DNA of 64,000 nucleotides from Pocillopora verrucosa (Eukaryota; Cnidaria; Anthozoa; Scleractinia; Pocilloporidae), in the NCBI RefSeq assembly GCF_036669915.1, contig NC_089322.1, positions 16,546,219-16,610,218 of the forward strand, read 5' to 3'. Positions 8,443 to 56,628 of the stretch are shown piece after piece (position 1 is the first letter of the stretch; each line of letters starts with the position of its first letter). Below the pieces are notes generated by a model. The model did not search any database, was not told where the DNA came from, and was given only the letters and a program-made list of their open reading frames with translations. The translations under genes were made by a program, and so were the position numbers.

Positions 8443-10160
8443 TTACTAAGGCAATATCAGAACTACAAGTAGGTAAATAAACTATTTATACCTACCTTTG
8501 CTGTATGTTTGGAATGAGAACTTGGTTTACATTTAATCGGAGGTTGAAGTAGCTTTTTTGTGAGCTGATTTTATTTTCTGGTGTTCTCTGTATTCAATGT
8601 TCTTATATGTTTTAAAATTGTTTTTGGTTTAAATACGTAGTCAGTAACTATAGATCCACGGCCAAGTAATGGCTTCTCAGGGTTGTCAAAAAGATTTTGT
8701 GTAACAGCCGTCAATTCAGTGTCAATTCCACGTTTTATTCGATCCGAACAAATACGCTCAGCACACTGTTTGAATACAATACTGTATGAGAAATCCTTTC
8801 AAACAAAGAAGTGTCCTTTTCCGTAACCTTGAAAAGTGGTACAATATCCGTAGTGATTTCGTAATGTTCTATTTCCTCGATGTGAGTCTAGTTAAACGAT
8901 CCTCATCCGAAAAATAAAGGCGAGAATAACAGGCGATGAAAACATACGTGCGCCGAGGTTTAACGTAGTGTCGAATGGCAAAACCTCGGCAGAGACTGGC
9001 CCTAGTCCTCAGGGAAGATACCGCTGACATTTAGAGTAACTGGACTGTGATACAAAGAAGGCCGCACTAAAAAGTTTTATTTCCACCATTGTCATGCTTC
9101 TATGCCTGTTACCGGCTTATTGTAACAAACCTGCCTTCTATGTAGAAAGGGCTTATCTAGAATGTTACGTATTATCTTTTTCAAACTTTTAAATGCCGAT
9201 TAACAACAGCATTAGGCGTCAAAATCTCCTATTTGATGCATACACTGTATTCAAACAGCCTTGGACCGAAGGCGAGACCACATCAGCTTCACCCTCTGTT
9301 AGGCTGTCACCGAGCGCTTGAAAAGCGAAGAACTTAGCTAAGAAGGTGACTCCTCCATCTACTTTCAACCGAGTCTCTTTTTTTCCCTCATCATCCCACC
9401 CTCCCTTCCCCCGTTCTGTTCACATGTGTTGAACCGGAAGACTGATGTTTGAAAGTTGCACAAGTTTCTTGGAATCTCAACTCACTATACGGCGATAAAT
9501 ATAGCCATGATAAAATGAGGTGGATGGTATAATTTCAAACGTTTGCAGCGTGTTCTTTTCGTGATACAATGGCTAGAGCGACACATTCGGTCACGCTATG
9601 GAATCGATATAGTTACGCAGTGATGGAGAAAGTAGACAGTAGGTGAATAAAATTGAAATGCAAAACTGTCAATCTCTGTGCAAAGATCACATGATTCTCA
9701 AGGGATCTAATTCGCTTCTTTAAATATAATTCAGTTTCTCGGAATCTCAGACAAAAGAAGGTGTGTTTCTCTCGGCAATTCGTGATGGAGTCGCTTCCAA
9801 AAAACCTCTCTAATAATTTTCGTGTGGAATCAAAAAAGTTTCTCGGAATCCCAAACTCACTAAACGGCGTTAAATGTAGCGATGATAAAATGAGCTAGAT
9901 GGTACATGAACAAACGTTCCCAGCGTAGTGTATCTCGTGATACAGTGGCTACAGCGACACATTCGGTCGCGCTATGATAATCGATTTTACTACGCAGTGA
10001 TAGAGAAAGTAAACAATAGGTGAATAAAATTGTAATTCAAAACTGTCAATCACGCGATCCTACAGACATCTGCTTCGCTGCTTTAAATAGAATGCTAATC
10101 CAAGTTCAGTCTCTCGGAATCTCAAACAAAATAGGGCTGTGTTTTACTCAGCAATTCGTG
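8443..10160 (+). other. TRIM1 upstream region with duplicated leader
   Basis: No gene is supported. The segment from about 9470 to 9660 is repeated at about 9835-10030: the ctcactaaacggcg block, gataaaatgag, the acattcggtc block and gtgaataaaattg. Between the two lies a truncated copy of the TRIM start at 9785, whose ATG GAG TCG CTT is followed by unrelated codons and a stop. The TRIM1 frame is open back to 10020, adding 47 residues, but TRIM3 has an in-frame TGA in the equivalent stretch, so I treat this part as 5' UTR. Confidence 0.5.
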
Positions 10161-12368
10161 ATGGAGTCACTTCTAAAAGACCTCAAGAAACATGTAACAT
10201 GCTCGATTTGTTTGGATACTTACACCAAACCGAAGACCATTGCTTGTCTTCATACGTTCTGCTGTGAATGCCTGGAGAGACATGCACTAACGAGCCAAAA
10301 ACAAGGGTTTTATCGATGCCCCGAGTGTCAGGCACAAATTGGCATCCCTGAAGGAAAGCGTTTTAATAATCTGCCGAGCAGTTTTCTGCACAACAGTTTG
10401 TTGAGTCTTCTCGCCGTTCGACGCAGCGGCGAGGGAAATGAAATCAGCTGTAGTACATGCCAGAAGAAGAGCGCTGAGATCAACTACTGCTTTGATTGCG
10501 AGAAGTTTATGTGCCCAGAATGTGTGAAAGCACACGAAGTGTTTCGAGAAACTTTGTTTCAAGGACACAAAGTCACACCAGTGCGACAGTTTCAAGCCAC
10601 AGACTACGAGGCGTTGTTGAAACGGCAGTCGTTTTGCTCCGTTAAGTATCACGAGAAAGAAGTAACAAAGTTTTTCTGTGTGGGCTGTCAAAGCTGCGTG
10701 TGTCAGGTTTGCATCGCCACTGATCACAAGAGCCACGATGTTGTTCCGCTTGAAAAGGCAGCGGACGATGAAAAAGCAAACATCATTGCCAGAGCAAAGC
10801 TGGTCAAAGAGATGAAGGAGGTCTGCCGAGGCGTTATTCGTGAATTTGAGAACACGGAACATGAGTTGGAAACGAACATTATCACAGCTAAACGCCAAGT
10901 TTCCCAAGCAACCGAACAGATGATGGGAAAGCTTCGCCAACTAGAACGTGAAGCCATTACTGCCCTAGAGAAGACTCGCGTGTCAAGGATTGAGAAATTA
11001 CATTCTGGAAAAGCATTGGTTTTCTCTTTCGAAAAGCAACTTGACCAAGCATTTGAGTTCAGTAACAACCTGGTTGAGAGAAGCTCAAGTTCAGACATAA
11101 TGCTAAACAAGAAAAATGTAGAAGAACGAATCAAAGACCTCCTCGAGACCACAATGCCAGCACTTCCGGTTAGCTCGAGTGTGGAGTTTGTGTCGACATG
11201 TGAACCAGAGAGTTTGAGTCTGGGATTTACGAATTTCAGCGAGACAGATGTGCAAGGATCGACCGTGGAAGGACTGGATCAGAATTTCCAAGCTGGCGTA
11301 GAGGCAGAGCTACTAATTTGTCTCAAATCAAGCGAAGGAGAAATCAGAAACACTCAGCACACAGATCGTGTTGAAATACACATAGACCCTGCGGATCAGG
11401 TGAGGAGTTTGGTGACGAGTGAAAAAGAAGATGGAAATTTCCAAGCAAAATTTGTAGCGAAAGTACCAGGTACTTATAAAATAGAAGTAAAGATAAATGG
11501 ACAGAAACTTGCCAAGAGTCCATTTTCTATTCCGGTAAAAGTACGGGTGTTAAATGTTATAGGCAAGTTGGACGTTCAGGGAGAAATGCTGCAAGGTCCT
11601 GCTGGCATTGCAGTGAACAGTAAAGGTGTTATTGCTGTGGTTGATTATAGAGGTCACTGTATCCTGGTATTTGATGAGACAGGAAAGCTTGTGCGAAAAA
11701 TTGGTTCTTATGGAGACAAGAATGGACAATTAAAGAATCCAGTCGACGTCACATTCCTCAACGATGACGAGATTCTGGTGGCAGATGAAATTAATCACCG
11801 AATACAGCAGTTGAATGTACAGACAGGGAACTTTGTGAAAAGCTTTGGAAAAAAGGGAAGTGGAGATGGAGAGTTTAAGAATCCTGTAAGTGTTTGTATT
11901 ACAAGTGATGGACGTTTTATCGTTGTAGCGGATTTAAATAACAGCAGAATTCAGGTGTTTACAATGGATGGTGAACCTGTGTTTGAGTTTGGAAACAGTG
12001 GCCCAGAAAGGCTGGATCATCCACTCAGCTGCGTTTGTTACGAGGAAAAGGTCATTGTAACTGACCGCGATAATAACTGTGTGAAAGTGTTTGATGAGAG
12101 AGGACAGTTTTTGTACAAGTTTGGAGAAAAAGGAAACTGTAATGGACAGTTATATCGGCCGTATGGCTTATGTGTTGACAAAAATAATAAAGTTTTCATA
12201 TGTGATGAAGGAAATAATCGAGTTCAACAGTTTACATTGGAAGGAACTTTCACTGGAAAGACAAGTTCAAATATTCAGTTTGGATGGCCGTGGAGTGTCA
12301 CCCCAATGCTAGATGATCGGATTGCGGTCACAGACTACAGAAAGAAAGAAGTTTACATTCTGAAATGA
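10161..12368 (+). CDS. TRIM1: TRIM2/3/71-like TRIM-NHL E3 ubiquitin ligase
   Basis: Single-exon 735-residue protein. The start MESLLK is chosen because the upstream frame is not kept in TRIM3. Domains: C3HC4 RING with ligands C14, C17, C29, H31, C34, C37, C53 and C56; B-box 1 about 97-136; B-box 2 about 159-192; coiled coil about 200-330; filamin-type Ig repeat about 350-460; six NHL repeats about 466-735. The RING should recruit a ubiquitin E2, the coiled coil should dimerise, and the propeller should bind the target. Related NHL propellers (Brat, LIN-41/TRIM71) bind RNA. All zinc ligands are present, so I judge it functional. It differs from TRIM4 at about 50 of 275 NHL-region residues but only about 27 of the first 460 (hand count). 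The variable pairs after the blade Asp are YRG, EI, LN, RD, EG and YR. The likely poly(A) signal is AATAAA at 13036. Confidence 0.92.
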   Translation: MESLLKDLKKHVTCSICLDTYTKPKTIACLHTFCCECLERHALTSQKQGFYRCPECQAQIGIPEGKRFNNLPSSFLHNSLLSLLAVRRSGEGNEISCSTCQKKSAEINYCFDCEKFMCPECVKAHEVFRETLFQGHKVTPVRQFQATDYEALLKRQSFCSVKYHEKEVTKFFCVGCQSCVCQVCIATDHKSHDVVPLEKAADDEKANIIARAKLVKEMKEVCRGVIREFENTEHELETNIITAKRQVSQATEQMMGKLRQLEREAITALEKTRVSRIEKLHSGKALVFSFEKQLDQAFEFSNNLVERSSSSDIMLNKKNVEERIKDLLETTMPALPVSSSVEFVSTCEPESLSLGFTNFSETDVQGSTVEGLDQNFQAGVEAELLICLKSSEGEIRNTQHTDRVEIHIDPADQVRSLVTSEKEDGNFQAKFVAKVPGTYKIEVKINGQKLAKSPFSIPVKVRVLNVIGKLDVQGEMLQGPAGIAVNSKGVIAVVDYRGHCILVFDETGKLVRKIGSYGDKNGQLKNPVDVTFLNDDEILVADEINHRIQQLNVQTGNFVKSFGKKGSGDGEFKNPVSVCITSDGRFIVVADLNNSRIQVFTMDGEPVFEFGNSGPERLDHPLSCVCYEEKVIVTDRDNNCVKVFDERGQFLYKFGEKGNCNGQLYRPYGLCVDKNNKVFICDEGNNRVQQFTLEGTFTGKTSSNIQFGWPWSVTPMLDDRIAVTDYRKKEVYILK

Positions 12369-13824
12369 ATGCCCATTTTTGAGAGTAACTATCAATTCTT
12401 CATAAGCAAACCTTTTGCGAATATCTGTAAGTTTTATTGTTTTATTAATTTACGGAAAACTGTGACATGTCACGTGTCACAAGAGAACTTGAAAGAAAAT
12501 GGCTAGAATCAGCAACTTGCCTTCTAATTTTTCAAGGACAGTTTCAAAGAATTGTTGATTCATCACTTCAGAAATGTGATTGTGTGAGCTTTTATTAAAT
12601 TATAGTAATAGGACTGAGTGGAGTCCAATTCGGTCTATAATCATACGAGTGATTGACAAAATCGGACGACTACGAACGGGGAGTCCCATTTGTCAATCAC
12701 TAGTTTAAAAAAGAAACTAGACATCGGTTATAAGTTTTCATGAAAAGACAACGGTTCAGTCGCCGAAATGCGCGACAACAGCGCTTGCATATGACACGCA
12801 TTGTCCATTTACACAGGCATGACATGTCAGTTGTTCTATTCAATTGTCCAGTTACAAGCATGACATCTGCACTGTCCAATTGGTGCTCAAATCGAGCTGG
12901 TGATAACCAATCACATGCCGGAATTTTGTTATAGTTTTTACAGACCACAAAATCGATTTCAAACGAGATTAAGTTTTGTAACCGCTCAAAGATTTAGGAG
13001 TATTATTAAGGCAAAAAAAAAACACATTTCTGCAAAATAAATGTACAGTGGCATTGATTAATGTAAATTGTTGATGATACATTTTACTTATCAACTTTGC
13101 ATTTTTCCAGCATCTAGTAGACTTTTCCGTGAGCATATTTTGGTAGAGTTTTGGTTAAGTTAAATAATAGTAATTCTCTCATCAAATGAAGCATGCCTTT
13201 GTATCAAATTTTTAAATTAACACATTGACAGCAGCTTGCATGATTAAGCTGTAAACAATTCAACAATTTCGTAGTGCTTCGTTACTTTTGGAGGAATAAC
13301 ATTTAAATTGTTATTAGAAACCGTCTAAAGACTGAGGAGTGTTTTGAATGCATCAAGTTTGCATTTCTATTTAGGTATTTTATGCATGCAGGAGTTTTCA
13401 TGAATAAGTTCCTTTAAGTATTATGAAAGTGTCGATTGATTGAATGAATTACAGATATTACAGGATATTTTCCACTGTATTCATGAACTGTTCTAAAGTG
13501 CTTATCCTTTAAGTCTCTATAGCATTGACCATCGATAAAACAAATATCTTATTGACAGCATTGTGAATAAATTTACTTGTTTGATTTTCAAACGTGTGTT
13601 ACTGTGCAACAAGAATGCCTGCATGAGTAATAGATTAATTATCTTTTGCTGTACTAAAAACTCTTCTTTGGATGAAGTAGGGTATTTAAGATTATTTTTG
13701 ACTTTGCCAGATTGCATCATTTGAAAGCTAAGATGTAAAGTTCACAAGAACCCCTTCTATCTTACTTGGTTCAGTTTAAGAGCCAAGCTAACCAAGATGT
13801 TGTCTTGCAAACTTCATTGTTCAG
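12369..13824 (+). other. TRIM1 3' flank, likely 3' UTR, with hairpin
   Basis: After the stop comes a near-palindromic block around CACGTG (12461-12481). A perfect 12-bp stem follows: GTGATTGACAAA at 12649-12660 against TTTGTCAATCAC at 12689-12700. AATAAA occurs at 13036-13041. The hairpin is kept behind every TRIM copy and, slightly changed, behind the NHL pseudogenes. From about 13310 the sequence is the POC1-remnant block. I see no other gene. Confidence 0.45.
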
Positions 13825-14652
13825 AGACAGAGCAAATTAGATGAAGTAACAGGGAGGACTGGGGAGGCTGATGGTTTGGGAGGCATTCCAGCTACACAGC
13901 CTCCCCTCACCACACTCCTAGAAAGAGATATTCCTCTACAACTGAGCATGACACTGGAGTAAATTGTTGGCCAGTTGGGTATGCTTACACAGTCTTTTGT
14001 CATGGAAACATATCTGAACAGGGAATTATTTTAGAAACCAAGAACCTTGGGGGTGAGGACGGGGGATACACTCCTGTTAATGACCCCATCACGCTGCTAT
14101 TCATTGGGGAGAATACAATGGGTTGAAGGGGACCCATGTTAGGGGGAAAGGAGCGAAAGGGTGTGGCCTGATGAAAAGTTTACACCTATCATCGATTAAT
14201 CAATAAAACACCCTTCCTTTAGCCAGGGGGGGGGGGGGAGGGAAGAGATGGTGGGGAAGCACTATAGTTGCTCTTTCTCTCTTCCCCATCCCCCTAGAAA
14301 GAGGAATACCTGATCGCGAGATGGGGTTCATTTCTGAAACAGCAATTAGCTATCAAGTCCATGGCTTCCGTCGTTAAAAAGGTCATGAACAGTCATATGA
14401 GTTTTTTGACGAGAGACGAGGCAAAGATTTCGTGCAACATGGAGAGGCATTAGCTTACGCTTAAACTCAATGACATTTGACTTTTTTACGACATTTTTTG
14501 GAGTTGGGGAGAGATTGTCATATTCATCGAGCCACTTTTTGTCGCAGACAGTTTCAATTTTGGAACAAAGGCTGACGAGGACTGAGAATAAACTACGAGA
14601 ATGCCTGGATAACCAACAGAAAATCACTTTACAGATCAGACCTAACGAGTAG
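13825..14652 (+). pseudogene. POC1-like C-terminal exons, copy 2
   Basis: The penultimate exon (about 13825-13992) carries an in-frame TAA at 13960-13962 where other copies have a His, Leu or Tyr codon. Its donor is lost: cacag is followed by tctttt instead of gttagt. The last exon (14548-14652) is open, [16 protein letters not shown] to IRPNE-stop. A 13-base G run lies in the intron at 14226-14238. This is a fragment of a centriole-protein gene, not expected to make protein alone. Confidence 0.7.
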
Positions 14653-15015
14653 CGCAATACAGCAACAGAATCTAGAGACCTAATCATTAGACATGTTCAG
14701 AATTATTTTAAGACTAATTTTTGTATGGTAATATTGTAAACTATAAAAGAAATTTTCAATTGAGTGTCGAAAGTAGTCATGGATATAGTCATGGGCATTG
14801 GTTTAGCTTCACTGTTGTCTGTTATTGGTTTGAAGCGCAATACAGCAACAGAATCTAGAGACCTAATCATTAGACATGTTCAGAATTATTTTAATACTAA
14901 TTTTTGTATGGTTATATTGTAGACTATAAAAGAAATTTTCAATTGAGTGTCGAAAGTAGTCATGGATATAGTCATGGGTATTAGTTTACCTTGACTGTAG
15001 TCTGTTATTGGTTTA
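14651..15015. repeat. Local tandem duplication of about 183 bp
   Basis: The segment beginning agcgcaatacagcaacag at 14651 recurs at 14834 with few changes. It includes the caattgagtgtcgaaagtag and tagtcatgggcatt blocks. The equivalent stretch after TRIM4 has a single copy, so the duplication postdates that split. Confidence 0.75.
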
Positions 15016-19264: not shown

Positions 19265-21472
19265 ATGGAGTCGCTTCTAAAAAACCTCAAAGAGCATGTA
19301 ACATGTTCGATTTGTTTGGATACTTACACTAAACCGAAGACCATCGCTTGCCTTCATACGTTCTGCTGTGAATGCCTGGAGAGACATGCATTGACGAGAC
19401 AAAAACAAGGGTTGTATCCATGCCCCGAGTGTCAGGCACAAGTTCGCATCCCTGAAGGAAATCGCTTTGATAATCTGCCGAGCAGTTTTCTGCACAACAG
19501 TTTGTTGAGTCTTCTTGCTGTTCGACACAGTGGCGAAGGAAGCGAGATTAGCTGTAGTACATGCCAGAAGAGGAGCGCTGAGATCAACTACTGCTTTGAC
19601 TGCGAGAAGTTTATGTGCCCAGACTGTGTGAAAGCACACGAAGTCTTTCGAGAAAGTATGTTTGAGGGACACAAAGTCACACCAGTGCAACAGTTTCAAG
19701 CCGCAGACTACGAGGCCTTGTTGAAAAGGCAGTCATTTTGCTCAGAGAATTACCACAAAAAAGATGTGATTCGTTTTTTTTGCGTGAACTGTCAAAGTTG
19801 TGTATGTCAAGTTTGCATCGCCACAGATCACAAAAGCCACGATATTGTTCTGCTTGAAAAGGCAGCCGACGATGAAAAAGTAAACATCATTGCCAGAGCG
19901 CAGCTGGTCAAAGGGAAGAAAGAGGCTTGCCGAGGTGTTATTCGTGAATTTGAGAAGACGGAACTTGAGTTAGAAACGAACATTACCACAGCTAAACGCC
20001 AAGTCTCTCAAGCAACCGAACAGATGATGGGAAAGCTTCGCCAACTGGAGCGCGAAGCCATTTCTGCCCTCGAGAAGACTCGCGTGTCAAGGATTGAGAA
20101 ATTACATTCTGGAAAAGCATCGGTTGTGTCTTTTGAAAAGCAACTTGACCAAGCATTTGAGTTCAGTAACAACCTGGTTAACAGAAGCTCAAGTTCAGAC
20201 ATAATGCAAAACAAGAAAAATGTAGAAGAACGAATCGAAGACCTCATCAAGACCACAATGCCAGCACTTCCGGCTAGCTCGTGTGTAGGATTTGTGACGA
20301 CATGTAAACCAGAGAGTTTGAGTCTGGGATTTACGAATTTCAGCGAAACAGATGTGCAAGGATCGGCCGTAGAAGGACTGGATCAGAATTTCCAAGCTGG
20401 TGTAGAGGCAGAGCTACTAATTTGTCCCAAAACAAGCGAAGGAGAAATCAGAAACACTCAGCACACAGATCGTGTTGAAATACACATAGACCCTGCGGAT
20501 CAGGTGAGGAGCTTGGTGACGAGTGAAAAAGAAGATGGAAATTTCCAAGCAAAATTTGTAGCGAAAATACCAGGTACTTATAAAATAGAAGTAAAGATAA
20601 ATGGACAGAAACTTGCCCGGAGTTCATTTTCTATTCTGGTCAAAGCTCGAGAATTAAATATTGTAGGCAAGTTGGATATACATGGAGAAATGCTCCAAGG
20701 TCCAACCGGCATTGCAGTGAACAGCAAAGGTGTTATTGCTGTGGCTGATTCTGAAGGTCACTGTATCCTGGTATTTGATGAGACAGGAAAGCTTGTGCGA
20801 AAAATTGGTTCTTATGGAGACAAGGATGGACAATTAAAGGATCCAGTCGACGTCACATTCCTAAAGGATGACGAGATTCTGGTGGCTGATCAATGTAATC
20901 ACCGAATACAGCAGTTGAATGTACAGACAGGGAACTTTGTGAAAAGCTTTGGAAAACTGGGAAGTGGAGATGGAGAGTTTAAGAATCCTGTAAGTGTTTG
21001 TATTACAAGTGATGGACGTTTTATCGTTGTAGCGGATTTTAATAACAGCAGAATTCAGGTGTTTACAATGGATGGTGAACCTGTGTTTAAGTTTGGAGAC
21101 AGCGGTCCAGAAAGGCTGGATTATCCCGCCGGCTGCGTTTGTTACGAGGAAAAAATCTTTGTAACTGACAAGAATAATAACTGTGTGAAAGTGTTTAATG
21201 AGAGAGGACAGTTTTTGTATAAGTTTGGAGAAAAAGGAAACGGTGATGGACAGTTATATCGGCCGTATGGCTTATGTGTTGACAAACATAATAACGTTTT
21301 CTTATGTGATGGGGGAAATAATCGAGTTCAACAGTTTACATTGGAAGGAACTTTCACTGGAAAGACAAGTTCAAATATTCAGTTTGGATGGCCGGGGAGT
21401 GTCATCCCAATGCTAGATGATCAGATTGTGGTCACAGACTACATAAAGAAAGAAGTTTACATTCTGAAATGA
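19265..21472 (+). CDS. TRIM2: TRIM2/3/71-like TRIM-NHL E3 ubiquitin ligase
   Basis: Intronless, 735 residues, with the same RING, B-box 1, B-box 2, coiled coil, filamin repeat and six-NHL order as TRIM1, and all zinc ligands kept. It is the most divergent copy in the B-box 2 area (CSENYHKKDVIRFFCVNC). Upstream in-frame codons reach 19196, but MESLLK is the conserved start. The residues after each blade Asp are SEG, QC, FN, KN, GG and YI. The bases around those codons are nearly identical to the other copies, so the changes are local. AATAAA follows at 22141. Predicted role: dimeric ubiquitin ligase with a propeller-borne target site; the target is unknown. Confidence 0.92.
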   Translation: MESLLKNLKEHVTCSICLDTYTKPKTIACLHTFCCECLERHALTRQKQGLYPCPECQAQVRIPEGNRFDNLPSSFLHNSLLSLLAVRHSGEGSEISCSTCQKRSAEINYCFDCEKFMCPDCVKAHEVFRESMFEGHKVTPVQQFQAADYEALLKRQSFCSENYHKKDVIRFFCVNCQSCVCQVCIATDHKSHDIVLLEKAADDEKVNIIARAQLVKGKKEACRGVIREFEKTELELETNITTAKRQVSQATEQMMGKLRQLEREAISALEKTRVSRIEKLHSGKASVVSFEKQLDQAFEFSNNLVNRSSSSDIMQNKKNVEERIEDLIKTTMPALPASSCVGFVTTCKPESLSLGFTNFSETDVQGSAVEGLDQNFQAGVEAELLICPKTSEGEIRNTQHTDRVEIHIDPADQVRSLVTSEKEDGNFQAKFVAKIPGTYKIEVKINGQKLARSSFSILVKARELNIVGKLDIHGEMLQGPTGIAVNSKGVIAVADSEGHCILVFDETGKLVRKIGSYGDKDGQLKDPVDVTFLKDDEILVADQCNHRIQQLNVQTGNFVKSFGKLGSGDGEFKNPVSVCITSDGRFIVVADFNNSRIQVFTMDGEPVFKFGDSGPERLDYPAGCVCYEEKIFVTDKNNNCVKVFNERGQFLYKFGEKGNGDGQLYRPYGLCVDKHNNVFLCDGGNNRVQQFTLEGTFTGKTSSNIQFGWPGSVIPMLDDQIVVTDYIKKEVYILK

Positions 21473-29067: not shown

Positions 29068-31269
29068 ATGGAGTCGCTTCTAAAAAACCTCAAAAAGCAT
29101 GTAACATGTTCGATTTGTTTGGATACTTACACTAAACCGAAGACCATTGCTTGTCTTCATACGTTCTGCTGTGAATGCCTGGAGAGACATGCACTAACGA
29201 GCCAAAAACAAGGGTTTTATCGATGCCCCGAGTGTCAGGCACAAATTGGCATCCCTGAAGGAAAGCGTTTTGATAATCTACCAAGCAGTTTTCTGCACAA
29301 CAGTTTGTTGAGTCTTCTCGCCGTTCGACGCAGCGGCGAGGGAGATGAAATCAGCTGTAGTACATGCCAGAAGAAGAGCGCTGAGATCAACTACTGCTTT
29401 GATTGCGAGAAGTTTATGTGCCCAGACTGTGTGAAAGCGCACGAAGTGTTTCGAGAAACTTTGTTTCAAGGACACAAAGTCACACCAGTGCGACAGTTTC
29501 AAGCTACAGACTACGAGGCGTTGTTGAAACGGCAGTCGTTTTGCTCCGTTAAGTATCACGAGAAAGAAGTGACAAAGTTTTTCTGTGTGGGCTGTCAAAG
29601 CTGCGTGTGTCAGGTTTGCATCGCCACTGATCACAAGAGCCACGATGTTGTTCCGCTTGAAAAGGCAGCGGACGATGAAAAAGCAAACATCATTGCCAGA
29701 GCAAAGCTGGTCAAAGAGATGAAGGAGGTCTGCCGAGGCGTTATTCGTGAATTTGAGAAAACGGAACATGAGTTGGAAACGAAGATTACCACAGCTAAAC
29801 GCCAAGTTTCCCAAGCAACCGAACAGATGATGGGAAAGCTTCGCCAACTACAACGTGAAGCCATTACTGCCCTAGAGAAGACTCGCGTGTCAAGGATTGA
29901 GAAATTACATTCTGGAAAAGCATCGGTTGTCTCTTTGGAAAAGCAACTTGACCAAGCATTTGAGTTCAGTAACAACCTGATTGAAAGAAGCTCAAGTTCA
30001 GACATAATGCAAAACAAGAAAAATGTAGAAGAACGAATCAAAGACCTCATCGAGACCACAATGCCTGCACTTCCGGTTAGCTCGTGTGTGGAGTTTGTGT
30101 CGACATGTGAACCAGAGAGTTTGAGTCTGGGATTTACGAAGTTCAGCAAGACAGATGTGCAAGGATCGACCGTGGAAGGACTGAATCAGAATTTCCAAGC
30201 TGGTGTAGAGGCAGAGCTACTAATTTGTCCCAAAACAAGTGAAGGAGAAATCAGAAACACTCAGCACACAGATCGTGTTGAAATACACATAGACCCTGCG
30301 GATCAGGTGAGGAGTTTGGTGAAGAGTGAAAAAGAAGATGGAAATTTCCAAGCAAAATTTGTAGCGAAAGTACCAGGTACTTATAAAATAAAAGTAAAGA
30401 TAAATGGAGAGAAACTTGCCAAGAGTCCATTTTCTATTCTGGTCAAAGCACGAGAGTTAAATATTGTAGGCAAGTTGGATATACATGGAGAAATGCTCCG
30501 AGGTCCAACCGGCATTGCAGTGAACAGTAAAGGTGTTATTGCAGTGGCTGATTATCACTGTATCCTGGTATTTGATGAGACAGGAAAGTTTGTGCGAAAA
30601 ATTGGTTCTTATGGAGATGAGAATGGACAATTAAAGAATCCAGTCGACGTCACATTCCTAAACGATGACGAGATTCTGGTGGCCGATCAATTTAATCACC
30701 GAATACAGCAGTTGAATGTACAGACAGGAAACTTTGTGAAAAGCTTTGGAAAAAAGGGAAGTGGAGATGGAGAGTTTAAGTTTCCTGTAAGTGTTTGTAT
30801 TACAAGTGATGGACGTTTTATCGTTGTAGCGGATTCTTATAATAGCAGAATTCAGGTGTTTACAATGGATGGTGAACCTGCGTTTAAGTTTGGAAACAGT
30901 GGCCCACAAAGGCTGGATCATCCATTCAGCTGCGTTTGTTACGAGGAAAAGTTCATCGTAACTGACAAGGATAATAACTGTGTGAAAGTGTTTGATGGGA
31001 AAGGACAGTTTCTGTACAAGTTTGGAGAAAAAGGAAACGGTGATGGACAGTTGAATCAGCCGCATGGCTTATGTGTTGACAAGCATAACAACGTTCTCAT
31101 ATGTGATGAGGAAAATAATCGAGTGCAACAGTTTACATTGGAAGGAACTTTCACTGGAAAGATAAGTACTAATTTTCAATTAGGATATCCCTGGAGTGTT
31201 ACCCCGATGCTAGATAATCGGATTTTGGTCACAGACTTCGGAGTGAAAGAAGTTTACATTCTGAAATGA
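29068..31269 (+). CDS. TRIM3: TRIM2/3/71-like TRIM-NHL E3 ubiquitin ligase
   Basis: Intronless, 733 residues, with the same domain order as TRIM1. ATG at 29068 is the only supportable start, because an in-frame TGA interrupts the leader frame upstream. The RING, both B-boxes and the coiled coil are close to TRIM1 and TRIM4. The NHL part carries a six-base in-frame deletion in the blade-1 turn (near 30550), giving ADYHC where other copies have two more residues. The other residues after the blade Asp are QF, SY, KD, EE and FG. Blade 5 to 6 also differs (KISTNFQLGYPWSV). The stop is followed after 33 bp by a 488-bp foldback element. AATAAA at 32434 would place that element inside the 3' UTR. 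Confidence 0.92.
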   Translation: MESLLKNLKKHVTCSICLDTYTKPKTIACLHTFCCECLERHALTSQKQGFYRCPECQAQIGIPEGKRFDNLPSSFLHNSLLSLLAVRRSGEGDEISCSTCQKKSAEINYCFDCEKFMCPDCVKAHEVFRETLFQGHKVTPVRQFQATDYEALLKRQSFCSVKYHEKEVTKFFCVGCQSCVCQVCIATDHKSHDVVPLEKAADDEKANIIARAKLVKEMKEVCRGVIREFEKTEHELETKITTAKRQVSQATEQMMGKLRQLQREAITALEKTRVSRIEKLHSGKASVVSLEKQLDQAFEFSNNLIERSSSSDIMQNKKNVEERIKDLIETTMPALPVSSCVEFVSTCEPESLSLGFTKFSKTDVQGSTVEGLNQNFQAGVEAELLICPKTSEGEIRNTQHTDRVEIHIDPADQVRSLVKSEKEDGNFQAKFVAKVPGTYKIKVKINGEKLAKSPFSILVKARELNIVGKLDIHGEMLRGPTGIAVNSKGVIAVADYHCILVFDETGKFVRKIGSYGDENGQLKNPVDVTFLNDDEILVADQFNHRIQQLNVQTGNFVKSFGKKGSGDGEFKFPVSVCITSDGRFIVVADSYNSRIQVFTMDGEPAFKFGNSGPQRLDHPFSCVCYEEKFIVTDKDNNCVKVFDGKGQFLYKFGEKGNGDGQLNQPHGLCVDKHNNVLICDEENNRVQQFTLEGTFTGKISTNFQLGYPWSVTPMLDNRILVTDFGVKEVYILK

Positions 31270-34085: not shown

Positions 34086-35649
34086 TGCAATACAGCATCA
34101 GTATCTAGAGACTTAATCATTAGTCATGTTCAGAATTATTTCAAGACTAATTTTTGTATGGTAATATTGTAAACTATAAAAGAAATTTTCAATTGAGTGT
34201 TGAAAGTAGTCATGGATATAGTCATGGGTATTAGTTTACTTTGACTGTAGTCTGTTATTGGTTTAGAGAGCCTATGCTGCCCTCTTGACCAATCAAGTAC
34301 GTGCCTTATCATGATCGAGTGTTGGAATAGGGCCATTCGCATATTTCCAGCGCTACAGGCTCTTTGCTAGTTTTTCTTTTGAGTTATCTCTGGCCTTTTG
34401 TTATATTTCCTTTTTTAGAGCAGTTTCCAACTGAGTATCGAAAGTGATGCTGTATTGCTTTGGTTCTGCTTTACTTCTTTGTGTGGTTGGTCCACAGAAA
34501 CTCAGAAAGACTCGCGTCGCAATCTTAACCAATCATATGTAAAACTAAGACCAAATACGACCTGATCACTCGCGTTTTCCCGCGCTTTAAGGGGGTTGGC
34601 TGTTTCTACTCTGAGTTCTCATTGGCTAATAATCATGGAAACCTTTTTTCTGACTGGCAGTTGTGATTACCTTGGTTTTGGTTTTTCGATACTGAATTGA
34701 AAAGTGCTCGATGATTGGCAGTTGTGATCACTTTGGATTGGGTTGTAGGACACTCAGTTGAAATGTGCTTTTTGAGAGTACAGTGTTTTATATCTGTGTG
34801 TAAATATCACATAAAGTTACTAAGTCAATGGCAGAACTACAAGTGGATTAATAAAATATTTTTACCTACCTTTGCTGTATGTTTGGAATGAGAACTTGTT
34901 TTACATTTAGTCGGAGGTTGAAGTAGCTTTTCTATTAGCTGATTTTATTTGCTGGTGTGTCTCTTCAATGTTCTTATGTGTTTTAAAATTGTTTTTCGTT
35001 TAAATACGTATTCAGTAACTTTAGACCTAGACTAAACAGAACGTTATTTGTCCGCTGGTGGATACGAGTTTATAATATCTCTCACAAAAGAGAGATGTTG
35101 GCGACACTGGAGGATAAATTTGTATCAACCCACGGCCATGTAATGCCTTCTCAGGGTTGTCAAAAAGATTTTGTGTAACAGCCGTCAATTCAGTGTCAAT
35201 ACCACGTTTTATTCGATCTGATCAACTACGCTCTGCACACTGTTCGAATACAATGCTGTATGATAAATCCTTTCAAACAAGTAAGTGTCCTTTTCCGTAA
35301 CCTTGAAAAGTGCTACAATATCCGTAATGGTTCCGTAATGTTCTTTTTCTTCGATGTAAGTCTAGTTAAACGATCCTCATCTGAAAAATAAAAGCGAAAA
35401 TAACAAGCGATGAAAACACACGTGCGCTGAGATTTAACGTAGTGTCGAATGGCAAAATCTCGGCAGAGACTAGGCCTAGTGCTTAGGGAACCTACCATTT
35501 ACATTTAGAGTAACTGAACTGTGATACAAAAAAGGCCGAAAAAAAAGTTTTATTTACACCACTGTCATGCTTCCATGCCTGTTACCGGATTAATGTAACA
35601 AATCTGCCCTCTATGTAGAAAGGGCTTATCTAGAAATGTTACATATTAT
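34086..35649 (+). other. Intergenic: CCAAT/E2F module copy and spacer
   Basis: E2F-like site at 34575-34585 with CCAAT-type boxes around it. The following spacer is shared with 54079-55491. No gene is seen. Confidence 0.3.
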
Positions 35650-36231
35650 CTTTTTCAAACTTTCAAATGCCGAACAACAACAGCATCAGGGGGCAAAATG
35701 TCTTGTTTGGTGCATACACTGTCCGAACTGACTGGTTTCCGAAACGCAGAATGATTCCGAATGAATTGGGTTCCCTTGGGGAACGAACAAGCGATGGGAG
35801 CCTGTATCACCGAGTGAAGTACTATGGTATGGGTACATGATAGAGAGGTAGGGGTAGTAAAGATGGAGATAGGGCCACTTGACCCAGAAAAAGGGGTGCA
35901 GGGTACTAGACAGAGAGGTAAATACTCTGGGAAAATTTTTAAGGGGGCGGTGTGGGTTTAGATCATAGAAATATGCAGAAATAAACAACAACAACAACAA
36001 CACCTGATACCTCTTTCACCTCATTAGCAGATAATATTTTGTCTGTAACTCTGAAGTAGGATCAAGATCAAAGCCCAATCTTGTTTAACTGATTTTGCAT
36101 GAAGATTATCATCCTTCTGCCAAGGGTCAAAAAGAAATTTTCGCCGTAGGGGTAAGGCCATCTTCATAGATTAAGTTCAGGGACCTGTTTCTTGAAAGTA
36201 GCGGTAACCAGCAGCCCATAAGTAATGAGCT
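35650..36231 (+). pseudogene. RNF8-like relic 3, fused to an NHL fragment
   Basis: Leader joined to the FHA exon end, then intron 1 as in relics 1 and 2 (including a (CAA)n run near 35987), up to agtaatgagctcc. There it stops abruptly and continues as TRIM NHL coding sequence. The same junction occurs at 56065, so the fusion happened once and was then duplicated. Confidence 0.72.
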
Positions 36232-36794
36232 CCGAATACAGCAATTGAATGTACAGACAGGGAACTTTGTGAAAAGTTTTGGCAAAGAAGGAAGTGGAGA
36301 TGGAGAGTTTGTGTCTCCTGTAGGTGTTTGTATTACAAGTGATGGACGTTTTATCGTTGTAACGGAGTTTGCTAACAGCAGAATTCAGGTGTTTACAATG
36401 GATGGTGAACCTGTGTTTAAGTTTGGAGACAACGGCCCAGAAAGGCTGGATCATCCCACCAGCTGCGTTTGTTACAAGGAAAAGTTCTTTATAACTAACA
36501 ATAATAATAACTGTGTGAAAGTGTTTGATGAGAGAGGACAATTTCTGTACAAATTTGGGACACGGTGATGGACAGATGGATACGCCGTATGGCTTATGTG
36601 TTGACAAACATAACAACGTTTTGGTATATGATGCGAGGAACATTCGCATTCAACAGTTTACTCTGGAAGGAGCTTTCACTGGAAAGACAAGTTCAAATAT
36701 TCAATTTGGATTGTCCTGGAGTGTTACCCCAATGTTAGATGATCGGATTTTGGTCACAGGCTTCCGCGGGAAAGAAGTTTACATTCTGAAGTGA
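36232..36794 (+). pseudogene. Truncated TRIM-NHL pseudogene 1
   Basis: It starts inside NHL blade 2 (equivalent to HRIQQLNVQTGNF of the intact genes) and runs to the conserved end KEVYILK-stop. RING, B-boxes, coiled coil and filamin repeat are absent. An 8-base deletion near 36559 (tttgggacacgg where intact copies have tttggagaaaaaggaaacgg) shifts the frame after blade 4. Residues after the blade Asp or its replacement are FA, NN, AR and FR, again different from every intact copy. The typical TRIM 3' flank follows. Confidence 0.85.
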
Positions 36795-38171
36795 ACGTCC
36801 ATTTCTGAAAGCAACAATCAATTTTTCAAAAGCAAACCTTTAGCAAATATCTTTGAGTTTTATTATTTTATTAATTTCCGGAAAATTGTGACATGTCATT
36901 TGTCGTAGGAGAATTGGAAAGAAAATGGCTAGAATCAGCAACCTGCCTTCTAATTTTCTTTGGAGAGTTCAAAGAACTGTTGATTCATCATTTCGGTAAT
37001 GTGATTGTTTGTGTCGTATATTGATAATAGTAATAGGATTGAGTGGACTCCAATCTGATTTCTAATCGTACTAGTGATTGACAAAATCAGACGGCCGCAA
37101 AGTGGGAGTCAGATTTGTCAATCAATAGTTTAGAAAGCAACCACTCATTGGTTATATGTTTTGTATTTCCGATCCCATTGGCCCGAGGGCGCTTGCGATT
37201 ACTTGTTTATGACATAAAGGGAAAAATTTTTGAGGGAATTGCATTTGCGCACAATGTCTACATGTCTAATTACCAATCACGTGCAAGAATATAGTTTTGA
37301 TAAAACATGAAATCAATTTCAAACGAGAATAAGCTCTATAACCGCTTAAAGACATAGGAGTATTTTAAAGGCAAAATATACATTTCTGCAAAGTAACTGT
37401 ACAGTGGTACTGAGTAGTGTTAATTGTTTCTGATAATTTTTACTTATTAACTTTATATATTTTCAGCAGGTTTAAGTAGACTCTTCCGTGAGCATATTTT
37501 GGGACTGATAGTTGAGCTCGATAATATTAATTGACTTGTCAGATGGAGCATGCTTTTACATCCAATTCTTTAATGACCACTCATGGACAGTGGCTTGCAT
37601 GATTAAGCTGTAAACAATTTGACAATTTCGTAGTACTTAGTTGCTTTTGGAGGAATTACATCTAAAATGTGATTAGAAATTATCTTAAGACTGAGAAGTG
37701 TTTTGAATGCATCAAGGTAGCATTTCTATTTAGGTTTTTCGTACATGGAGGAATTTTTAAGAACAAGTTTCTTTAAGTATTATAAAAATGTAAATTGATC
37801 GAATGAATTACTGATATTATAGGATATTTTTCACCATATTCATGAACTGTTCAACAGTGCTTATCCTTTAGGTTTGTATAGCGTTGACCACTGTTAAATC
37901 AAATATCTTACTGAATGCATTGTGAATAAATTTACTTGTTTGATTTGCAAAAGTGTATTACTGTGCAACACTGTGAATAATAGGTAAATGATCTTTTTTG
38001 TTGTACTTAAAACTCTCCATTGGATGAAGTAGGCTATTGAGAATTATTATTTGACTTTGTCAGATAGCATCAAATGAAAGCTAAGAGTTGAAGTTCACGA
38101 GAAATCCTTCCACCTTACTTGGTTTAGTTGAAGAGCAAAGTTAACCAAGATGTTGTCTTGCAATTCTTCAG
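36795..38171 (+). other. 3' flank of NHL pseudogene 1
   Basis: Diverged TRIM 3' flank. The hairpin at about 37072-37124 is altered to GTGATTGACAAA / TTTGTCAATCAA. The POC1 block starts near 37680. No other gene is seen. Confidence 0.35.
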
Positions 38172-38599: not shown

Positions 38600-39132
38600 A
38601 TACAGTGTTTTATATCTGTGTGTACATATCATATAAAGTTACTATGGTAATATAAGAACTGCAATCAGATTAATTAATTAATTAACTATTATTACCGACC
38701 TTTGCTGTATATTCAAACTTTCGCGATGCCACACAACGACAGCATCAAGGGGAAAAATTCCCTATTTTGTGCATACACTGTCCGAACAGACTGGGTTCGG
38801 AAACATCTAAATTCAATTAAAAGTACAAAACTTTGCATGATGATCAACGCAGTTCGCGTGTTTCGAGCCTACGAGCGATGTGAGCGTGACAGAGATCCGC
38901 GAGAAAACAAAACACCACTTTCACATTCATTCCTCATATCCGTTATCCTTTTCCCTATTCCTGATTTTGCTAACGAGAAGTTACACCCGAGCTTGTCCGA
39001 TCTTGTCCGAACGATTTCCGAATATCGTGTCGTACTGTTAAAATGGCCGCTTGGAGAGTACTTCAAGAACACAGTCAAGAAGAATCTTGAAGTGGTGTAA
39101 GAGGCTTTTGCACACTGAAACAGAAGAGAAAA
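38600..39132 (+). promoter_or_regulatory. 5' leader of RNF8-like copy 2
   Basis: TATA-like catatcatataaag near 38626, a (TTAA)n run near 38670, then the leader frame 38726-39100 that is also open in copies 1 and 3. The CCAAT/E2F module present in other units is deleted here. Function is unproven. Confidence 0.35.
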
Positions 39133-49570: not shown

Positions 49571-51778
49571 ATGGAGTCGCTTCTAAAAAACCTCAAGGAG
49601 CATGTAACATGCTCGATTTGTTTGGATACTTACACCAAACCGAAGACCATTGCTTGTCTTCATACGTTCTGCTGTGAATGCCTGGAGAGACATGCACTAA
49701 CGAGCCAAAAACAAGGGTTTTATCGATGCCCCGAGTGTCAGGCACAAATTGGCATCCCTGAAGGAAAGCGTTTTGATAATCTGCCGAGCAGTTTTCTGCA
49801 CAACAGTTTGTTGAGTCTTCTCGCCGTTCGACGCAGCGGCGAGGGAAATGAAATCAGCTGTAGTACATGCCAGAAGAAGAGCGCTGAGATCAACTACTGC
49901 TTTGATTGCGAGAAGTTTATGTGCCCAGACTGTGTGAAAGCACACGAAGTGTTTCGAGAAACTTTGTTTCAAGGACACAAAGTCACACCAGTGCGACAGT
50001 TTCAAGCCACAGACTACGAGGCGTTGTTGAAACGGCAGTCATTTTGCTCCGTTAAGTATCACGAGAAAGAAGTGACAAAGTTTTTCTGTGTGGGCTGTCA
50101 AAGCTGCGTGTGTCAGGTTTGCATCGCCACTGATCACAAGAGCCACGATGTTGTTCCGCTTGAAAAGGCAGCGGACGATGAAAAAGCAAACATTATTGCC
50201 AGAGCAAAGCTGGTCAAAGAGATGAAGGAGGTCTGCCGAGGCGTTATTTGTGAATTTGAGAACACGGAACATGAGTTGGAAACGAACATTACCACAGCTA
50301 AACGCCAAGTTTCCCAAGCAGCCCAACAGATGATGGGAAAGCTTTGCCAACTACAACGTCAAGCCATTACTGCCCTAGAGAAGACTCGCGTGTCAAGGAT
50401 TGAGAAATTACATTCTGGAAAAGCATCGGTTGTCTCTTTCGAAAAGCAACTTGACCAAGCATTTGAGTTCAGTAACAACCTGGTTGAAAGAAGCTCAAGT
50501 TCAGACATAATGCAAAACAAGAAAAATGTAGAAGAACGAATCAAAGACCTCATCGAGACCACAATGCCTGCACTTCCGGTTAGCTCGTGTGTGGAGTTTG
50601 TGTCGACATGTGAACCAGAGAGTTTGAGTCTGGGATTTACGAAGTTCAGCAAGACAGATGTGCAAGGATCGACCGTGGAAGGACTGGATCAGAATTTCCA
50701 AGCTGGTGTAGAGGCAGAGCTACTAATTTGTCCCAAATCAAGCGAAGGAGAAATCAGAAACACTCGGCACACAGATCGTGTTGAAATACACGTAAACCCT
50801 GCTGATCAGGTGAGGAGCTTGGTGACGAGTGAAAAAGAAGATGGAAATTTCCAAGCAAAATTTGTAGCGAAAGTACCTGGTCCTTATCAAATAGAATTAA
50901 AGATAAATGGACAGAAACTTGCCCGGAGTCCATTTTCTATTCTGGTCAAAGCACGAGAGTTAAATATTGTAGGCAAGTTGGATATACATGGAGAAATGCT
51001 CCAATGTCCAACCGGCATTGCAGTGAACAGTAAAGGTGTTATTGCTGTGGCTGATCTGTATCGTCATTGTATCCTGGTATTTAATGAGACAGGAAAGTTT
51101 GTGCGAGAAATTGGTTCTTATGGAGACAAGGATAGACAATTAAAGAATCCAGTCGACGTCACGTTCGTAAACGATGACGAGATTCTTGTGGCAGATAAAT
51201 ATAATCACCGAATACAGCAGTTGAATGTACAGACAGGGAACTTTGAGAAAAGCTTTGGAAAAAAGGGAAGTGGAGATGGAGAGTTTATGTTTCCTGTAAG
51301 TGTTTGTATTACAAGTGATGGACGTTTTATCGTTGTAGTGGACCGTGATAACAGCAGAATTCAGGTGTTTACAATGGATGGTGAACCTGTGTTTAAGTTT
51401 GGAGACAGTGGCCCAGAAAGGCTGGATAATCCACTCAGCTGCGTTTGTTACGAGGAAAAGTTCTTTGTAACTGACTTTAAAAATAACTGTGTGAAAGTGT
51501 TTGATGAGAGAGGACAGTTTTTGTACAAGTTTGGAGAAAAAGGAAACGGTGATGGACGGATGGATCAGCTGTATGGCTTATGTGTTGACAAACATAATAA
51601 CGTTTTCTTATGTGATAGGAGAAATAATGGAGTTCAACAGTTTACATTGGAAGGAACTTTCACTGGAAAGGCAAGTTCAAATAATCAGTTTGGATGGCCG
51701 TGGAGTGTCACCCCAATGCTAGATGATCGGATTGTGGTCACAGACTTCAGAAAGAAAGAAGTTTACATTCTGAAATGA
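49571..51778 (+). CDS. TRIM4: TRIM2/3/71-like TRIM-NHL E3 ubiquitin ligase
   Basis: Intronless, 735 residues from MESLLK; the frame is open back to 49430 as in TRIM1. RING, B-box 1 and B-box 2 ligands, coiled coil (with several Glu to Gln changes around 251-264), filamin repeat and six NHL blades are all complete. The residues after each blade Asp are LYR, KY, RD, FK, RR and FR, more basic and aromatic than in TRIM1. The conserved blade-5 NNRV reads NNGV and the blade-5 opening reads GRMDQLYG. Predicted role: dimeric ubiquitin ligase whose propeller carries its own specificity. AATAAA at 52446. Confidence 0.92.
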   Translation: MESLLKNLKEHVTCSICLDTYTKPKTIACLHTFCCECLERHALTSQKQGFYRCPECQAQIGIPEGKRFDNLPSSFLHNSLLSLLAVRRSGEGNEISCSTCQKKSAEINYCFDCEKFMCPDCVKAHEVFRETLFQGHKVTPVRQFQATDYEALLKRQSFCSVKYHEKEVTKFFCVGCQSCVCQVCIATDHKSHDVVPLEKAADDEKANIIARAKLVKEMKEVCRGVICEFENTEHELETNITTAKRQVSQAAQQMMGKLCQLQRQAITALEKTRVSRIEKLHSGKASVVSFEKQLDQAFEFSNNLVERSSSSDIMQNKKNVEERIKDLIETTMPALPVSSCVEFVSTCEPESLSLGFTKFSKTDVQGSTVEGLDQNFQAGVEAELLICPKSSEGEIRNTRHTDRVEIHVNPADQVRSLVTSEKEDGNFQAKFVAKVPGPYQIELKINGQKLARSPFSILVKARELNIVGKLDIHGEMLQCPTGIAVNSKGVIAVADLYRHCILVFNETGKFVREIGSYGDKDRQLKNPVDVTFVNDDEILVADKYNHRIQQLNVQTGNFEKSFGKKGSGDGEFMFPVSVCITSDGRFIVVVDRDNSRIQVFTMDGEPVFKFGDSGPERLDNPLSCVCYEEKFFVTDFKNNCVKVFDERGQFLYKFGEKGNGDGRMDQLYGLCVDKHNNVFLCDRRNNGVQQFTLEGTFTGKASSNNQFGWPWSVTPMLDDRIVVTDFRKKEVYILK

Positions 51779-53233: not shown

Positions 53234-54078
53234 AAACAGAGCAAATTAGATGAAGTAACAGGGAGGACTGGGGAGGCTGATGGTTTGGGAGGCATTCCAG
53301 CTACACAGCCTCCCCTCACCACACTCCTAGAAAGAAGAGATATTCCTCTACAACTGAGCATGACACTGGAGTAAATTGTGGGCCAGCTGGGTATGCCTAC
53401 ACAGTCTTTTGTTATGGAGACATATCTGAACAGGGAATTATTTTAGAAACCAAGAACCTTGGGGGTGGGGACGGCGGATACACTCTTGTAAATGACCCCA
53501 TCACGCTGTTATTCATTGGGGAGAATACTAGGGGTTGAAGGGGACCCATGTTAGGGAGAAAGGAGCGAAAGGGTGTGGCCTGATGAAAAGTTTACACCTA
53601 TCATCGATTAATCAATATCCATTTTAAAACACCCTTCCTTTAGCCGGGTATGGGGGGGGGGGGGAGGGAAGAGATGGTGGGGAAGCACTATAGTTGCTCT
53701 TTCTCTCTTCCCCATCCCCCTAGAAAGAGGAATACCTGATCGCAAGATGGGGTTCATTTCTGAAACAGCAATTAGCTATCAAGTCCATGGCTTCCGTCGT
53801 TAAAAAGGTCATGAACAGTCATATGAGTTTTTTGACGAGAGACGAGGCAAAGATTTCGTGCAACATGGAGAGGCATTAGCTTACGCTTAAACTTAATGAT
53901 ATTTGACTTTTTTACGACATTTTTTGGTGTTGGGGAGAGATTGTCATATTCATCGAGCCACTTTTTGTCGCAGACAGTTTCAATTTTGGAACAAAGGCTG
54001 ACGAGGACTGAGAATAAACTACGAGAATGCCTGGATAACCAACAGAAAATCACTTTGCAGATCAGACCTAACGAGTAG
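53234..54078 (+). pseudogene. POC1-like C-terminal exons, copy 7
   Basis: The penultimate exon (53234-53404) has the in-frame TAA at 53372-53374 and the lost donor seen in copies 2 and 3. The last exon (53974-54078) is open to IRPNE-stop. A G run of 13 or so lies at 53652-53664. Confidence 0.7.
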
Positions 54079-56065: not shown

Positions 56066-56628
56066 CCGAATACAGCAATTGAATGTACAGACAGGGAACT
56101 TTGTGAAAAGCTTTGGCAAAGAAGGAAGTGGAGATGGAGAGTTTGTGTCTCCTGTAGGTGTTTGTATTACAGGTGACGGACGTTTTATCGTTGTAACGGA
56201 GTTTGCTAACAGCAGAATTCAGGTGTTTACAATGGATGGTGAACCTGTGTTTAAGTTTGGAGACAACGGCCCAGAAAGGCTGGATCATCCCACCAGCTGC
56301 GTTTGTTACAAGGAAAAGTTCTTTGTAACTGACAAGAAGAATAACTGTGTGAAAGTGTTTGATGAGAGAGGACAATTTCTGTACAAATTTGGGACACGGT
56401 GATGGACAGATGGATACGCCGTATGGCTTATGTGTTGACAAACATAACAACGTTTTGGTATATGATGCGAGGAACATTCGCATTCAACAGTTTACCCTGG
56501 AAGGAGCTTTCACTGGAAAGACAAGTTCAAATATTCAATTTGGATTGTCCTGGAGTGTTACCCCAATGTTAGATGATCGGATTTTGGTCACAGGCTTCCG
56601 CGGGAAAGAAGTTTACATTCTGAAATGA
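56066..56628 (+). pseudogene. Truncated TRIM-NHL pseudogene 2
   Basis: Counterpart of 36232-36794: same truncated start in blade 2, same 8-base deletion and frameshift near 56393, same KEVYILK end. It differs at few positions, including the blade-4 turn (DKKNNC here, NNNNNC there). Non-functional. Confidence 0.85.

Follow-up and report, generated by a model that had tools for sequence, protein, structure and literature searches.

We analysed a stretch of 64,000 nucleotides from the coral Pocillopora verrucosa, hereafter the window (NC_089322.1, positions 16,546,219-16,610,218 of the forward strand, assembly GCF_036669915.1), which sits on the contig that we labelled C11 (16546219-16610218) of the 353 Mb genome. 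The window contains four intact TRIM genes, T1 to T4, each in a single open reading frame (ORF), and two truncated, frame-shifted remnants of an NHL domain, and T2 to T4 align with T1 over the full length. T1 has the RING finger with its zinc ligands and the B-boxes (two stretches) of the TRIM (RBCC) proteins, together with the filamin repeat and the six-bladed NHL propeller of TRIM class VII. A preliminary description of the window had claimed that the residues following a conserved Asp in each NHL blade differ almost every time between the four copies. Alignment and codon mapping recovered all of these strings at the codons named, YRG/SEG/Y--/LYR in blade 1, EI/QC/QF/KY in blade 2, LN/FN/SY/RD in blade 3, RD/KN/KD/FK in blade 4, EG/GG/EE/RR in blade 5 and YR/YI/FG/FR in blade 6; the turns FA, NN, KK and AR of the remnants were also found, and the turn-codon coordinates given for T1 were correct. 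Across the gene family we found duplication in arrays, recombination between copies, a conserved RING-to-filamin region and propeller scaffold, and repeated replacement at about 30 sites of one propeller face, faster than silent change.

When one protein query was compared with the genome, 61 matches were scored among 522 candidates, and 53 of the 61 are open, full-length paralogues, a lower bound for the genome, the other eight having stops or being partial. Twenty-nine of the 53 lie on C11 (24 around the window and 5 at 15.47-15.56 Mb), 15 on C13, 8 on C8 and 1 on C10. Seven of the eight Cys/His ligand positions of the RING are intact in 53 of 53 paralogues and the eighth in 52 (one Cys to Ser), and L029 is the sole case of the 53 without the usual start Met. 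For comparison, 52 of the 53 were sorted into five groups according to contig and identity to T1: C11a (24 genes, the window's group), C11b (5), C8 (8), C13a (8) and C13b (7). The single C10 gene stood outside the group statistics. One gene of C8 lies at 22.79 Mb and one of C13a at 14.51 Mb, so the groups are not strict arrays. By eye, the 15 paralogues on C13 (L038-L047 and L049-L053) have the C-termini TS, AS, IG or VTT/VTN in place of the VTD of the window genes, and the blade 6 Asp seems to be replaced in all 15. A viral contig collection searched for more DNA gave no matches, and four bacterial NHL-like loci from other genome contigs, with 27-31% identity, were not used.

In a first protein alignment of the four window copies with 120 of 1384 matches, 21 of the 25 most variable columns fell at the first two residues after the blade Asp (D+1, D+2) or at P-2, P-1 or P+1 around a Pro. 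The latter are a second periodic variable set, absent from the preliminary description, which flanks the Pro that opens strand a of each blade. We combined both sets in a mask of 30 of the 267 NHL sites, 12 of them at D+1 and D+2 (“b-c”, the half taken from the preliminary description) and 18 at P-2, P-1 and P+1 (“d-a”). In C11a, amino-acid entropy was 2.06 bits at b-c and 1.41 at d-a, compared with 0.28 at the other NHL sites and 0.20 from RING to filamin. Nucleotide diversity at codon positions 1/2/3 in the same group was 0.472/0.458/0.186 at b-c and 0.350/0.259/0.114 at d-a, and 0.069/0.035/0.096 at the other NHL codons and 0.046/0.033/0.095 from RING to filamin. Among the 30 NHL sites with the highest variability, the mask held 24 in C11a (hypergeometric p 3e-23), 16 in C11b, 16 in C8, 15 in C13a and 16 in C13b, and 0 of 266 circular shifts reached its mean entropy in each of the five groups.

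Two further protein sets gave the same picture: 23 of the 30 top sites lay in the mask in 22 of 23 rows from two contigs, and 24 of 30 in a set of 40 rows (P0191-P0235, 700-760 residues, 61-65% identity to the query, one Oculina patagonica protein included), with 0 of 266 shifts matching in either set. The mask sites are hypervariable in all five groups and in both further sets, and 47 different 30-site surfaces occur among the 53 genes. The claim that the bases on either side of the turns are nearly invariant stood broadly for amino acids and failed for silent diversity, which in C11a is raised in the codons adjoining the mask. Blade-sized cassettes found no support, the association between mask sites being little greater within a blade (0.446) than between blades (0.39-0.46 by linear distance; 21 unique surfaces).

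Replacement and silent change were compared as the proportions of nonsynonymous (N) and synonymous (S) differences, pN and pS, and as the ratio of the corresponding rates, dN/dS. In the four window copies, the 13 turn codons of the preliminary description had a pN of 0.52 and a pS of 0.19 (dN/dS 3.9), while the other NHL codons had 0.059 and 0.099 (0.58) and the RING-to-filamin region had a dN/dS of 0.32. With the NG86 method, dN/dS in C11a was 4.07 at b-c, 4.02 at d-a, 0.38 at the other NHL codons and 0.28 from RING to filamin; the other four groups had 1.67-2.10 at b-c, 1.03-6.02 at d-a and 0.25-0.59 outside the mask. Maximum-likelihood (ML) estimates of the ratio (omega, model MG) for the mask, followed in brackets by those for the other NHL codons, were 4.4 (0.37) in C11a, fitted to 22 unique NHL sequences, 2.2 (0.60) in C11b, 1.9 (0.34) in C8, 1.7 (0.32) in C13a and 3.8 (0.57) in C13b, and C11a under MGK gave 5.6 (0.46). 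A dN/dS above 1 at the turns, which the preliminary description had offered as a check, is therefore what the mask of C11a shows. The mask departed from an omega of 1 in C11a (twice the log-likelihood difference, 2 delta lnL, 38.5; p 5.5e-10) and in C13b (p 3.9e-5), and codon resampling placed the mask pN/pS of C11a at 1.89-5.66 (95%).

The pairwise homoplasy index (PHI) test of C11a gave a statistic of 0.197 against 0.395 expected, with 0 of 300 permutations as low, which indicates strong recombination. We also counted differences in 24 disjoint gene pairs, for which no tree is needed, and the counts agree with the tree-based omega: the mask had 437 N and 61 S differences (pN 0.267, pS 0.143), and the other NHL codons 729 N and 434 S (pN 0.055, pS 0.116). 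The N:S ratio of the mask differed from that of the other NHL codons (Fisher p 4e-27), and N in the mask exceeded the 0.794 share of replacements expected under neutrality (p 8e-7), both p values being approximate since changes within a codon are not independent. The evidence as a whole points to positive selection on the putative ligand-binding face of these clustered paralogues, strongly in C11a and less so in the four smaller groups.

The structure modelled for the T1 NHL domain is a six-bladed propeller (predicted local distance difference test score, pLDDT, 88) and was matched to the solved NHL propellers of Thin, TRIM71, LIN41, TRIM2/3 and Brat. In each of the six modelled blades, strand b ends with the Asp and strand a starts with the Pro. 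This puts the mask sites within the b-c and d-a loops or adjoining them, on a single face of the modelled propeller. This one-face clustering, another check offered by the preliminary description, is predicted from propeller topology together with the LIN41 footprint given below. The mean loop entropy in C11a was 0.74 bits on the mask face and 0.21 on the opposite face, and in each of the five groups the mask-face loops were the more variable (p 4e-5 to 0.018), with the smallest contrast in C13a (0.91 vs 0.62).

Kumari et al. (2018; PMC5908797) name 14 residues of zebrafish LIN41 that touch RNA or stack against it, and all 14 of these lie at D+1, D+2, P-2, P-1 or P+1 (30 of 277 residues; p 1e-15). 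Because other authors had defined these 14 residues in a different animal, the set is independent of our choice of columns. The C11a codons matching the 14 contacts, mapped blade by blade, had an entropy of 1.98 compared with 0.35 in the rest of the NHL domain, and an omega of 27.7 (2 delta lnL 47.5). Five rotated blade registers gave omega values of 3.0-16.5, so that the unrotated register was the highest of six, and it is backed by a structural alignment (model 15-289 on 6fq3 542-824). T1, compared by hand, keeps 1 of the 14 contact residues. The coral proteins have the contact positions of LIN41 (14 of 14) filled by different and hypervariable residues, and not the conserved RNA-contact residues of a LIN41 orthologue. 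The mean net charge over the 30 sites lies between -0.8 and +1.9, depending on the group, and individual values range from -4 to +5; the C10 gene has +4 and LIN41 +5.

Table 1. Features of the TRIM genes and NHL remnants, in window positions.
Feature	Positions	Strand	T1 residues	Remarks
T1 TRIM copy	10161..12368	+	735 in all	Single ORF: RING, two B-box matches, middle region, filamin, six-bladed NHL
T1 RING finger	10200..10328	+		Pfam zf-RING_UBOX and zf-C3HC4 above cut-off
T1 B-box zinc finger	10632..10751	+		Best-scoring of two matched stretches
T1 filamin repeat	11244..11525	+		Pfam Filamin
T1 NHL propeller	11565..12365	+	469-735	Pfam NHL, structure model
Blade 1 d-a site	11592..11603	+	478-481	P-2 to P+1
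Blade 1 b-c turn	11646..11651	+	496-497	D+1/D+2; the third codon (to 11654) is D+3
Blade 2 d-a site	11733..11744	+	525-528	P-2 to P+1
Blade 2 b-c turn	11787..11792	+	543-544	D+1/D+2
Blade 3 d-a site	11877..11888	+	573-576	P-2 to P+1
Blade 3 b-c turn	11934..11939	+	592-593	D+1/D+2
Blade 4 d-a site	12015..12026	+	619-622	P-2 to P+1
Blade 4 b-c turn	12066..12071	+	636-637	D+1/D+2
Blade 5 d-a site	12153..12164	+	665-668	P-2 to P+1
Blade 5 b-c turn	12207..12212	+	683-684	D+1/D+2
Blade 6 d-a site	12282..12293	+	708-711	P-2 to P+1
Blade 6 b-c turn	12336..12341	+	726-727	D+1/D+2
T2 TRIM copy	19265..21472	+		Intact
T3 TRIM copy	29068..31269	+		Intact; two-residue deletion in the blade 1 turn
NHL remnant 1	36233..36791	+		Pseudogene, 5'-truncated, frame-shifted
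T4 TRIM copy	49571..51778	+		Intact
NHL remnant 2	56067..56625	+		Pseudogene; truncation and frame break common to remnant 1

The window is made up of duplicated blocks, for example 9461-14832 and 48879-54244 at 95% identity and 34527-37264 and 54366-57098 at 97%. Two similar ORFs, 39091-39621 and 59336-59899, lie inside duplicated blocks about 96% alike, and the first, the one of the two that was scanned, has an FHA domain. A 183-base unit forms a tandem pair, 95% alike, at 14651-15014. T2 looks like a mosaic: from RING to filamin its synonymous divergence (dS) is 0.21-0.23 to the other three copies, and in the NHL domain outside the turns it is closer to T1 and T4 (0.08 and 0.07) than to T3 (0.15). 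The two NHL remnants have 9 differences in 559 bases, and 4 of the 9 are packed in 15 bases at the blade 4 turn (window positions 36491-36505 and the counterpart in 56067-56625), where one reads AAC AAT AAT and the other GAC AAG AAG, with one more difference in the base before; a short conversion tract or local slippage could produce such a cluster. The remnants were not shown to be conversion donors. Scans of the window for Rfam families (gathering threshold) and for tRNA genes gave no matches.

We consider it rather likely that these genes form a tandemly duplicated family of TRIM E3 ligases whose NHL propeller bears a hypervariable, positively selected ligand-binding face, probably used as an immune repertoire. 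We propose that tandem duplication would supply the copies, point mutation would give variants and recombination between copies would reshuffle them. The face would bind varying or evolving ligands, most likely microbial or viral molecules inside coral cells, whether RNA or protein; the RING would then ubiquitinate the ligand, or else a partner, and the face would go on changing under selection for novel specificities. The LIN41 footprint makes RNA a possible ligand, and the mixed chemistry of the sites makes protein no less possible. The variable face may serve to recognise RNA or antigen, as put forward in the preliminary description. It is also conceivable, and in our view a little short of an even chance, that reef corals turned the RNA-gripping NHL face of the TRIM71 type into a germline hypervariable surface, with many ligases built on a single scaffold and differing in a recombined ring of about 30 residues, and that the resulting repertoire recognises foreign RNAs or proteins and directs them to ubiquitination. 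Direct tests of binding can now start from a few dozen identified residues and a large choice of natural variants. In an animal that lacks antibodies, the family is a candidate repertoire for recognition inside the cell. Should its ligands come from viruses, microbes or symbionts, it would be relevant to the way in which corals discriminate friend from foe.

Several results weigh against this interpretation. The d-a half of the mask was picked after the first protein alignment had been seen, and in C13b the b-c set alone was equalled or exceeded by 2 of 266 shifts. Taken singly, the evidence for a mask omega different from 1 is weak in C11b (p 0.071), C8 (p 0.043) and C13a (p 0.080); b-c alone reaches significance in none of the smaller four (p 0.05-0.66), and d-a alone does so in C13b (p 4e-5) and not in the other three (p 0.07-0.23). 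Since recombination, which can raise tree-based estimates, is plain in C11a, the tree-based omega values may be inflated. Four of the seven most recent disjoint pairs (L012/L015, L026/L027, L038/L039 and L041/L042) have no replacement in the mask, and the variable face is not uniformly basic. Silent differences are raised in places: in C11a, pS is highest in the codon adjoining the mask (0.236 vs 0.065-0.144 further off); in C11b, the mask pS is 0.22/0.21 vs 0.10 at the other NHL codons; and in C13b, pairs with the same amino acid have silent differences in 20 of 81 comparisons at b-c (0.247) vs 0.104 elsewhere. Finally, gamete recognition, allorecognition or symbiont recognition would give an identical signature.

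If the turns mutated faster than their surroundings, silent sites should show an excess. Targeted local hypermutation, or a templated mutator acting at the turns, would account for the sharply focal changes and is in line with the raised silent values of C11a, C11b and C13b, with the pS of the adjoining codon in C13a (0.537, the highest; 0.32-0.40 elsewhere) and with the four remnant differences packed at the blade 4 turn. On the other hand, in the four groups covered by distance bins the mask pS fell within the range of the other NHL bins: 0.105 in C11a (others 0.065-0.236), 0.280 in C8 (0.229-0.299), 0.432 in C13a (0.320-0.537) and 0.177 in C13b (0.095-0.213). The excess in the adjoining codon was not consistent in the three groups other than C11a, being slight in C8 and absent in C13b, where this codon had the lowest value (0.095). 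C11a pairs with the same amino acid had silent differences in 55 of 880 comparisons at b-c (0.062) and 60 of 2041 at d-a (0.029), compared with 4552 of 57237 at the other NHL codons (0.080), a comparison that favours closely related pairs and is supportive only. Adenine-biased templated mutation, as by a diversity-generating retroelement, was rejected: the share of differences involving A in C11a was 0.67 at mask codon positions 1 and 2 and 0.66 in other codons. Most of the evidence from silent sites goes against local hypermutation, two small groups being exceptions, and we regard it as very improbable; the raised silent values are far below the replacement excess, although a modest local effect may exist. 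Relaxed constraint, under which the turns would be free to vary without positive selection, fits the facts that the turns are surface loops, that the T3 b-c loop tolerates a two-residue deletion and that the masks of C8, C13a and C11b are not clearly above an omega of 1 (p 0.04-0.08). However, drift predicts a dN/dS of about 1, whereas the mask reaches 4-6 in C11a and the LIN41-contact set 28; N is above the neutral fraction in the disjoint pairs, and the opposite-face loops are less variable in all five groups. This explanation is already disfavoured, and we give it hardly any chance.

The two remaining alternatives accept the selection and change the ligand. Corals harbour algal symbionts and display allorecognition, and a face that changes so as to match partners inside the animal (gametes, symbionts, self or non-self), and not in defence against microbes, predicts the same selection signature. 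The architecture of RING, B-box, filamin and NHL is that of intracellular TRIM proteins and fits less well with recognition at the cell surface, and we consider partner matching unlikely. Alternatively, the paralogues may have divided many host mRNA targets among themselves, just as this face binds different RNAs in LIN41, Brat and Mei-P26. All 14 mapped RNA contacts of LIN41 fall at variable positions, the NHL face alters RNA specificity between families (PMC5908797), and some copies reach the LIN41 charge at the 30 sites (up to +5). Nevertheless, the group averages of -0.8 to +1.9 are below the +5 of LIN41, and T1 shares one of the 14 contact residues. To our knowledge, host targets are not normally drivers of repeated replacement among recent copies. 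Host RNA regulation is, in our judgement, quite improbable.

The proposed immune role of the coral family has a precedent, by analogy, in human TRIM56, which restricts Zika virus and for this needs its E3 activity and RNA binding by an NHL-like C-terminus (PMC6623546). The likeness is an NHL-like C-terminus that binds viral RNA; the differences are that TRIM56 is a human gene and that no diversified face is described in the sections of that paper drawn on here. In merulinid corals, NHL-repeat and B-box orthogroups are reported to be expanded (PMC11639872), and tandem amplification of gene families, many of them related to innate immunity, has been reported in corals (PMC10236652), in a paper whose main text does not contain the word NHL. 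Searches of the open-licence PMC literature turned up no account of a diversified NHL face in any cnidarian (for some queries, among the leading results only). Sardiello et al. (PMC2533329) set a conserved group 1 of TRIM genes, with TRIM32 named as a member, apart from a fast, species-specific group 2 bearing SPRY; we infer that all NHL TRIMs belong to group 1. The NHL TRIM family described here shows the fast, diversified pattern, on a face with known RNA contacts. In TRIM71/LIN41 the RNA-contact residues are fixed (14 of 14 identical by eye between zebrafish and mammalian proteins), whereas the corresponding residues are among the most variable in the coral family.

In organisation the family resembles the finTRIMs, of which zebrafish has 84 genes (PMC2657112): both have dozens of clustered paralogues, a near-identical RING and B-box, and positive selection on a C-terminal recognition domain. 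In finTRIMs, which belong to teleosts and not to corals, the selected domain is B30.2 and not NHL, and the 15 Pfam matches of T1 (E 0.001) include no B30.2/SPRY domain. The finTRIMs were found as virus-induced transcripts. TRIM5alpha likewise differs in carrying a SPRY domain, and its ligand is known. What the coral family would share with finTRIMs and TRIM5alpha is the logic of a constant ligase body with a selected binding face in clustered copies, and the coral version builds that face on the NHL propeller.

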